Below, in pieces: positions 22,009 to 24,143 of a DNA stretch of 63,461 nt. Positions within the stretch are counted from its first letter, which is position 1, and each line of letters begins with the position of its first letter. The position numbers and the translations under genes are program-made. The notes under the pieces were generated by a model. The model was not told the origin of the DNA and did no database searches. It saw only the letters and a program-made list of their open reading frames with translations. This DNA comes from Bacteroidales bacterium (GTDB lineage Bacteria; Bacteroidota; Bacteroidia; Bacteroidales; UBA932), in contig JAFZBQ010000035.1 in assembly GCA_017561665.1 (NCBI GenBank), forward strand, positions 1 through 63,461. Reading direction: 5' to 3'.

Positions 22009-24143
22009 CTTCCTATCAGTTTATAGAAGGTTTCTTCGTCAATTATCTCAACGCCCAGCTGGGTCGCTTTCTTTACCTTGCTCTCGCCCGGCTTGTCTCC
22101 TGCCAGCAGGTAGCTGGTCTTGCCGCTGACGCTGCCGGGAGATGTGCCGCCGTGGGCCTCTATCATCGCCTTCAGATCTTCCCTGGAAATGGAGAAGACG
22201 CCCGATACAACTATCGATTTGCCTTCCAGGACATTGGAGATGGTTTCGCGTGCTGCGGCGCGCATCTGCAGGCCGTGCTCCCGGAGTTTTTCTATCAGGT
22301 TGAGGTTGCCCTCATCTGCAAACCAGTCGGCTATGGAGGCGGCCACAATGGGGCCGATGTCCTCTGTCTGGGCCAGCTGCTCCAGACTTGAGGCAGCCAG
22401 GGTGTCGATGTCGCCAAAGGCCTTTGCCAACGTCTTTGCGGTGGTTTTGCCCACGTGGCGGATGCCTATGGCATAGAGAACCCGCTCAAAAGGAACCTCT
22501 TTGCTGCGCTCTATGCTGCCCAGGAAGTTGTCGCAGGATTTCTCCTGCCAGCCTTCCAGTGCGAGCAGCTGCTCTTTGGAGAGTTCGTAAAGGTCGCTGA
22601 GCTGCCGGATGTACCCCAGGCTGTAGAGCTGGTTTATCGTGGCCTCGCCCGCCAGGATGTCCATGGCGTCGCGGCTTACGAAATGTACGAAGGCCGCCTT
22701 TATCTGGGTGGGGCATCCGGTGCGGTTGGGACAGTAGTGCCGGGCCTCGTCGTTGTCCCTTACCAGCGGGGTGCCGCAGTCGGGGCAGAGAGTGGGAAAG
22801 TCGGGTCTCTTTGCATCTGCAGGGCGCTTCTTGAGCTCTACGGCGGTAATCTTGGGGATTATTTCGCCGCCCTTCTCTACATATACCCAGTCGCCGATAC
22901 GGATGTCCAGCAGGTCCATCTGGTCCTTGTTGTGGAGCGATGCCCGTTTGACGATGGTGCCCGAAAGGGGGACCGGCTCCAGATTTGCCACGGGAGTCAG
23001 GGCTCCTGTGCGGCCCACCTGATAGTCGATGCTCAGCAGCTGGGTGAGCGCCTGTTCCGGTTTGAATTTATATGCGGTGGCCCAGCGCGGACTTTTGGCG
23101 GTGAAGCCAAGCCGCTTCTGAAGGGCGAGGTCGTTGACCTTGATAACTACTCCGTCGGTGGCGTAGGGGAGCGCCTTGCGGCGGGAATCCCAATAGCTGA
23201 TGTAATCCAGCACCTGGGCCGCCCCTTTGCGCACCTGGGATAGTTCGCTCACTGGCAGGCCCCAGCTTGCGGCGGCTGCGATTGTCTCGCTGTGTGTTTT
23301 GAAAGGGAGATTCTCTCCAAGAAGATGATACAGGACGCAGTCAAGGCCGCGGCCGGCGACCTGGGCGCTGCTACCCAGCTTAAGGCTACCGCTGGCGGCG
23401 TTGCGCGGGTTGGCGAATGGCTGTTCGCCGATCTCCTCTTTTTCTGCGTTGAGGGCGTCGAAGGCGGCATACGGCATAAATATCTCGCCGCGTATTTCAA
23501 ACTCGCGGGGCCAGTCGCCCGGCTTTAACTGACGTGGTATCGTTTTTATCGTGAGGACGTTGTCTATGACATTATCGCCTTTGACACCGTCGCCGCGGGT
23601 CACCGCCTGCGTCAGGATTCCATCTTTATATGTCAGGCAGATGGCCACGCCGTCGAATTTCATCTCGCAGGAGTATTCCAACTCGCCGCCATTATCCGCC
23701 TCGAGTTTGGTGCAGAAGGCTTCCATATCCTCGCTGCTGTAAGTATTCCCCAGCGACAGCATCGGATATTTGTGCGTAATCTGTTCGAACTTGGCGGATG
23801 CCCGATCAGGTCGGGCATGACGCTCGGTATCGTCATTGCCGGCGTTGTTTCCGTCATTACCGGCGTTGTTTCCGTCATTGCCGGCGTCGCTTTCGTCATG
23901 CCCGGCTTGACCGGGCATCTCCGGCTCGGCAATATCGCTACCCACAACCTGCGTGGGGGAGTCGGGTTGCGCGAGGTCGGGATACATAGCCTCCAGAGCC
24001 TGCAGCTCCTGCATCTTGAGGTCGAATTCAAAATCGGTAATCACGGGGTTGTTCAGGACATAATAATTGTAATTATGCCTGCGCAATTCCTCGCTGAGCG
24101 CGTCTATACGCACTTTTGCGGCCGATTTTGAAATTTTTGCCAT
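22005..24143 (-). CDS. ligA: NAD-dependent DNA ligase with a repeat-encoded insertion
   Basis: 712-residue ligase that seals nicks using NAD+. The Ia domain is followed by the adenylation domain with the lysine in EMKFDGVA. The OB fold, a Cys4 zinc finger (CPDC to CPNRTGC), helix-hairpin-helix repeats and a C-terminal BRCT domain ([19 protein letters not shown]) are all present. Residues about 76-116 are an Asp/Asn/Gly-rich insertion (AGNDGNN repeats) encoded by a palindromic repeat element, placed between [10 protein letters not shown] and [12 protein letters not shown]. This explains the extra ~40 residues over usual LigA. ATG 24143 was chosen; the longer open frame runs antisense through pfp. 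First gene of a seven-gene cluster. Confidence 0.95.
23798..23918. repeat. Palindromic repeat element inside ligA
   Basis: Hairpins with 8-bp arms end the element. At 23798-23818 the arms are ATGCCCGA / TCGGGCAT with loop TCAGG. At 23898-23918 the arms are ATGCCCGG / CCGGGCAT with loop CTTGA. As in the XRE gene, the left hairpin is followed by GACG and the right one preceded by CGTC. Between them are 21-nt tandem units starting at 23831, 23852 and 23873 (CGTCATTGCCGGC then GTTGTTTC). On the coding strand these give repeated AGNDGNN. The reading frame of ligA stays open throughout. Confidence 0.85.

Follow-up and report, generated by a model that had tools for sequence, protein, structure and literature searches.

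Our analysis of a 63,461-nt stretch of a Bacteroidales genome (assembly GCA_017561665.1, contig JAFZBQ010000035.1; here referred to as the window) revealed a palindromic element inserted in frame in ligA. The element very probably constitutes a non-autonomous, dispersed dimer of CGTC-tagged REP palindromes, which has its tags inside, carries an array of half-units and is found both within and between genes.

A sequence-only reading of the window had described two inward-facing hairpins in ligA with 21-nt units between them, and this architecture was confirmed. The hairpins at positions 23798-23818 and 23898-23918 have perfect 8-bp arms and 5-nt loops, jointly form a 26-nt inverted repeat (88% complementary), and enclose three half-units (CGTCATTGCCGGC) at a 21-nt spacing (Table 1). 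The 25-nt hairpin pattern, with up to 3 mismatches allowed, matched the window three times versus 0.01 expected, and three matches were reached in 0 of 100 shuffles. Beyond what the earlier reading had noticed, the window holds a second in-frame copy (6746-6873) and an intergenic one (59425-59451). The minus-strand RNA of the ligA element is predicted to fold at -59.4 kcal/mol (z -6.8; 0 of 200 shuffles equally low), the two hairpins pairing with each other into a single long stem.

Table 1. Positions of the CGTC-tagged elements and their host genes in the window
Feature	Position	Strand	Length
ligA, NAD-dependent DNA ligase (712 aa), element host	22005..24143	minus	
Whole element, about LigA residues 75-116, presumed Ia/NTase junction	23796..23920	minus	125 nt
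CGTC-tagged hairpin, gene-5' copy, tag facing the centre	23894..23920	plus	
CGTC-tagged hairpin, gene-3' copy, tag facing the centre, translated RHARPDRAS	23796..23822	minus	
Half-unit (tag and left arm)	23831..23843	plus	
Half-unit, one mismatch	23852..23864	plus	
Half-unit	23873..23885	plus	
HTH-like gene (193 aa), host of the second in-frame copy	6515..7096	minus	
Second in-frame element, inside the HTH-like gene	6746..6873	minus	
Hairpin of the second element	6847..6873	plus	
Hairpin of the second element	6746..6772	minus	
24-nt tandem units of the second element	6789..6863		
Third copy, intergenic: half-unit 59405-59417 (two mismatches) and hairpin 59425-59451	59405..59451	plus	

The ligA frame is open across the whole element, which is translated as about 42 residues, and the invariant ligase residues are intact on either flank of the insert in an alignment of 31 sequences, just as the sequence-only reading had claimed. 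That reading had placed the insert in a loop of the adenylation domain; the site lies instead at the junction of what we take to be domains Ia and NTase, outside the adenylation domain proper. Residues 13-69 of the query align with residues 8-64 of Escherichia coli LigA and residues 117-711 with 68-670, leaving 47 residues where E. coli LigA has 3. Outside the linker, ligA showed a dN of 0.11-0.15 and a dS of 0.8-1.2 versus three relatives (row G023, without a value, was left out), and the closest LigA relatives (75-81%) are Bacteroidales metagenome-assembled genomes. The insert lengthens the Ia-NTase linker and is most likely near-neutral. The second host, the HTH-like gene, is backed by orthologues in the genus, and those that were read carry an unrelated linker at the insert site; a search of NCBIfam gave no match for this gene, nor for the open reading frames (ORFs) at C24 and C118:6983. 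A separate dispersed repeat with a palindromic core (46870-46903) occupies positions 46850-46925 of the window, where it adjoins the 3' end of the ORF at 46092-46856; it has 10 matches in the source genome, including itself.

The sequence-only reading had proposed a search of the whole genome for the repeat. BLAST with 151 bases of the element returned 53 matches in the source genome, including itself, and a covariance model built from 49 hairpins returned 82 (E up to 1e-3). At E up to 1e-6, 11 of 26 genomes of the genus were matched, with 77 matches in the source genome and 1 to 11 in the other ten; at E 1e-8, 73 of the family's 299 genomes and 12 of its 25 genera had matches. All these covariance counts may be low, since part of the candidates was scored (up to 150 per genome for the source genome and the genus, 24 for the family). 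In the alignment of the 49 hairpins, a set biased to pairing by the hairpin filter that preselected it, 99.7% of cells were paired, two-sided changes affected 53 cells, a number equalled in 0 of 500 shuffles, and the covariation score was 0.369 versus 0.106 after shuffling (0 of 500 as high). Two of the five covariation measures were weaker: the number of pairs changed on both sides was equalled in 9 of 500 shuffles and that of further pair types in 259 of 500. Because of the pairing filter, the test was repeated on 64 sites picked by fixed core bases alone, 60 of which had a complementary right dinucleotide; shuffling gave a mean of 19.7 and in 0 of 2,000 cases a value as high as 60. Collectively, the element is a dispersed repeat whose stems keep their complementarity through paired changes.

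The sequence-only reading had likened the element to those of Rickettsia and had left the family unnamed. As far as sequence features go, the element fits the class of CGTC-tagged REPs, including RPE-4 and RPE-6. Among the 49 aligned hairpins, the GTC of the tag is invariant and the first C is present in at least 90%, of which only the C was an open test since a GTCAT seed was used. The stem has 8 bp; the right-hand AT, which had not been imposed, is present in 62 of 64 sites; the loop has 5 nt in most hairpins and 6 nt in several on contigs C10 and C43; and the 3' tail starts with an invariant C followed mostly by T or C and then by any base. The available part of the survey by Di Nocera, De Gregorio and Rocco (2013; PMC3733652) describes CGTC REPs as having an unpaired CGTC at one end (TGTC or CCTC in many), an 8-9 bp stem beginning with AT, a 4-5 nt loop and a short unpaired 3' tail, most often CCA. 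It equates two R. conorii families with RPE-6 and RPE-4, counts Bacteroidetes among the phyla with such REPs, and lists intragenic REPs, including some in replication and repair genes such as the DNA ligase gene of Opitutus terrae; in the same part, no transposase is linked to CGTC REPs, most REPs are intergenic, and HH dimers tend to predominate, with TT dimers rare.

The likeness to the CGTC REPs so described extends to the tag, the 8-bp stem with AT first, the 5-nt loop, complementary stem changes, dimers, intragenic copies including those in replication and repair genes, the phylum and the absence of a linked transposase, for which PF01797 was the family searched here. In contrast to that description, TT (tags-inside) dimers prevail here, with 25 of 38 neighbouring hairpin pairs versus 5 HH and 8 HT; our matches are mostly intragenic instead of intergenic; the tail is mostly CT or CC plus any base instead of CCA; and half-unit arrays are present. 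Rickettsia RPEs are similar by their published description: they are palindromic repeats of about 100-150 bp in protein genes, and the passages available to us report that the ATGAC-rich RPE-4, -6 and -7 are in frame, that orthologues hold different RPEs at the same loci (PMC3767692), that RPEs are found at solvent-exposed sites, and that a guanylate kinase bearing an RPE is translated and active with an altered substrate affinity (cited in PMC2229807). Here, too, in-frame, ATGAC-rich copies occur, and orthologues can differ in the element found at a given locus; however, the RPE hosts are Rickettsia or Wolbachia, and the present host belongs to another phylum and has another lifestyle. The GTAG REPs associated with RAYTs, as portrayed in the available part of PMC3733652, likewise are short tagged palindromes with dimers, clusters and intragenic copies, but the tag here is CGTC and no RAYT link was seen. 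The accessible text of PMC12306157 describes REPs as seldom overlapping coding regions. A literature search, the scope of which did not extend to the supplementary intragenic REP list of PMC3733652, found no report of in-frame palindromic elements in Bacteroidales. The element differs from the known class in its lineage, in how much of it is intragenic, and in its tags-inside dimers accompanied by half-unit arrays.

We infer that an enzyme provided in trans would act on the hairpin and would make and insert copies, that half-units would expand by slippage between tag-arm repeats, and that selection would purge insertions that break the frame, carry a stop or hit the protein core, so that loop and linker copies would remain. 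Neither a transposition event nor a target duplication nor a moving enzyme was seen in the source genome and the relatives compared. It is improbable that the hairpins are moved by a RAYT (Y1 transposase) of the source genome. Five PF01797 matches were found there, three of them over the cut-off, and such a match (E up to 0.01) was present in 11 of 11 genus genomes having CGTC matches; yet it was also present in 12 of the 15 without them (23 of 26 overall), which makes the co-occurrence uninformative. On contig C10, a RAYT-like ORF is located about 0.4 kb from hairpins, but these belong to the neighbouring epimerase gene. The RAYT-like ORFs on C84 and C10 adjoin other repeats, nothing telling was found near the other three, and the 2013 survey, in its available part, likewise reports CGTC REPs without a linked transposase (PMC3733652). 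A RAYT was therefore rejected as the mover for want of linkage. Repeats of the CCCAATGG type (L113:3187-3266 and 4251-4339) flank a RAYT-like ORF (3360-4244), and a translation resembling them by eye is in frame in a SpoIID-like protein of L104.

Gene context was assessed in 28 stretches of the source genome (313 kb) that had been picked for hits or RAYT-like genes. The 82 matches formed 43 clusters; according to a crude gene caller, 28 of these were genic, 2 overlapped genes and 13 were intergenic. This home-made caller missed the HTH-like gene and placed the ligA start too far upstream; after hand correction, 27 clusters were genic, 12 intergenic (7 of these between convergent genes) and 4 unassigned. 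With the calls thus corrected, 52 of the 82 matches were in frame within 23 genes, a genic share of 63% that is below the expectation for random insertion, as about 92% of the same stretches is coding according to the crude caller. Pfam or NCBIfam backed 20 of the 23 host genes; Pfam gave no match for two (on C43 and C64), and the covariance hit at C64 is weak. The named hosts are LigA, MetH (at two sites), HisD, HutU, UDP-glucose dehydrogenase, superoxide dismutase, DsbD, an ABC-F ATPase, a U32 peptidase and a cytochrome c assembly protein, plus ten more. Several copies were observed on contig C10 in epimerase, polysaccharide-synthesis and UDP-glucose dehydrogenase genes.

The hairpin suits survival in genes because four of its six frames seldom contain a stop and encode hydrophilic peptides with a high content of Gly, Asp, Asn or Arg. 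Among 73 hairpins, a stop was present in frame B0 of 72, A1 of 63, B1 of 8, B2 of 4, A0 of 1 and A2 of none, and the four seldom-stopped frames take 50 of the 52 genic copies (B1, 21; A0, 13; A2, 10; B2, 6; the remainder being A1, 2, and B0, 0). Moreover, the tandem period was a multiple of 3 in 20 of 20 genic and 2 of 8 intergenic clusters (Fisher p 7e-5), or in 20 of 20 and 3 of 8 with the best-scoring period instead (p 6e-4). The period of each cluster was chosen by hand (C10:18464 shows both 24 and 19, and 24 was taken), and the test covered arrays of at least 15 nt, which left out 7 genic and 4 intergenic clusters, as well as the unassigned ones. A 10-nt repeat adjoining the genic cluster C59:94334, whose period is not a multiple of 3, lies outside the test. 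As periods are multiples of 3 in genic but mostly not in intergenic arrays, the reading frame appears to filter the copies; this pattern suggests array growth in steps of any length and host genes that are in use.

Could the inserts be kept for a function in protein or RNA, for instance as a flexible tether in LigA or as an mRNA hairpin that tunes translation? The stems do stay paired in coding copies, the LigA pair folds well as RNA, and the LigA, HTH and first MetH sites are linkers. However, the proteins that carry the element are unrelated and hold it at dissimilar positions, and at the LigA, HTH and MetH sites relatives have either no element or another sequence, which leaves such a function quite improbable. 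In MetH, for which 19 relatives matched and ten were aligned, the rest matching only partly, the first insert was absent from all 10 aligned relatives, whose linkers vary there. The second was absent from all 8 readable there, six of which have a short plain loop, with some extra residues in G020 and G007. The inserts in histidinol dehydrogenase (HisD), urocanate hydratase (HutU) and UDP-glucose dehydrogenase are absent from the best solved homologue. By sequence comparison, the empty site is clean for MetH and not for LigA or the HTH-like gene. Together with the 82 matches and the 23 host genes, these absences upheld the earlier view of a dispersed palindromic element of the RPE type that is tolerated in frame.

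Other repeats were also observed. An approximately 110-bp repeat bounded by CGTGGCA...TGCCACG is in frame in MetH and is present elsewhere (L095:4930-5041, L097:1191-1302 and L113:5570-5681). A 92-nt stretch (L104:1394-1485 and 14101-14192) recurs in the HisD and SpoIID-like genes at 75% identity and is read in frame in each; the solved homologue of HisD lacks it. Contigs C118 (end of L104) and C24 (start of L106) both terminate in the same repeat array, which probably belongs to one SpoIID-like gene, and the assembly apparently broke at this repeat. The ligA frame of G006 (L120) contains one internal TGA, which may be real or an assembly error.

The LigA linker was then compared across relatives, among which the sequence-only reading had proposed to look for a clean empty site and had regarded the same insertion with unrelated DNA as evidence against mobility. 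This contrary case was borne out only in part: genus relatives have other and sometimes long linker sequences at the site, but the short form is usual. The DSPT and PMLSL motif pair was found in 44 of 61 LigA loci, and the length between them, motifs included, was 27-39 residues in 34 loci and 51-94 in ten. Of the 22 genus relatives whose linker was readable, two carry the element in LigA, as the same dimer with a longer array in G007 and as a single hairpin in G020. All three LigA copies (G000, G007 and G020) share the same 3' boundary. In a LigA tree of 14 rows (four partial; of 18 full-length rows, six lacked a linker match and were excluded), these three do not form one clade, and well-supported branches force at least two changes; the element may have been inserted twice, or once long ago with losses. 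An ancestral variable LigA linker made repetitive by local tandem duplication, which the range of 27 to 94 residues and the long linkers of other sequence in the genus would suit, is very improbable, since hairpin matches at 82 places in the genome, in unrelated genes and intergenic regions and with paired stem changes, refute local duplication for the hairpins. Local duplication is nonetheless the likely origin of the half-unit arrays.

The remaining genus relatives have a LigA linker of other sequence, some of them long. One of these linkers, that of G018, was searched for dispersed repeats: its bases 38-110 have hits elsewhere in G017 and G018 (E 2e-19 and 1e-18) and a weak hit (E 0.01) within MetH of G017. 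It was rejected as a palindromic repeat, its longest arms being 9 nt with one mismatch, equalled in 59 of 200 shuffles. By eye, the G020 linker is in part similar to the palindromic repeat of the window at 46870-46903. From these comparisons, the LigA linker is permissive and accepts various repeats. We tentatively consider it possible, though rather doubtful, that several unrelated dispersed repeat families of this Bacteroidales lineage share the same permissive landing sites, the linkers of LigA (Ia/NTase) and MetH, and supplant one another in them, and that the CGTC family became mostly intragenic with the reading frame, rather than location, as its main filter.

In-frame palindromic elements are chiefly known from Rickettsia, with scattered cases elsewhere in the literature as far as the available texts show. 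Here, an uncultured gut Bacteroidales, many relatives of which have been sequenced, carries the same class of element in the gene of an essential ligase and in about twenty others. Two questions thereby become testable, namely, what moves CGTC REPs and how coding DNA absorbs mobile repeats, and the period test offers a simple sign of reading-frame selection on inserted arrays. If the turnover at landing sites were true, housekeeping proteins of sister species would differ by the turnover of coding mobile DNA.
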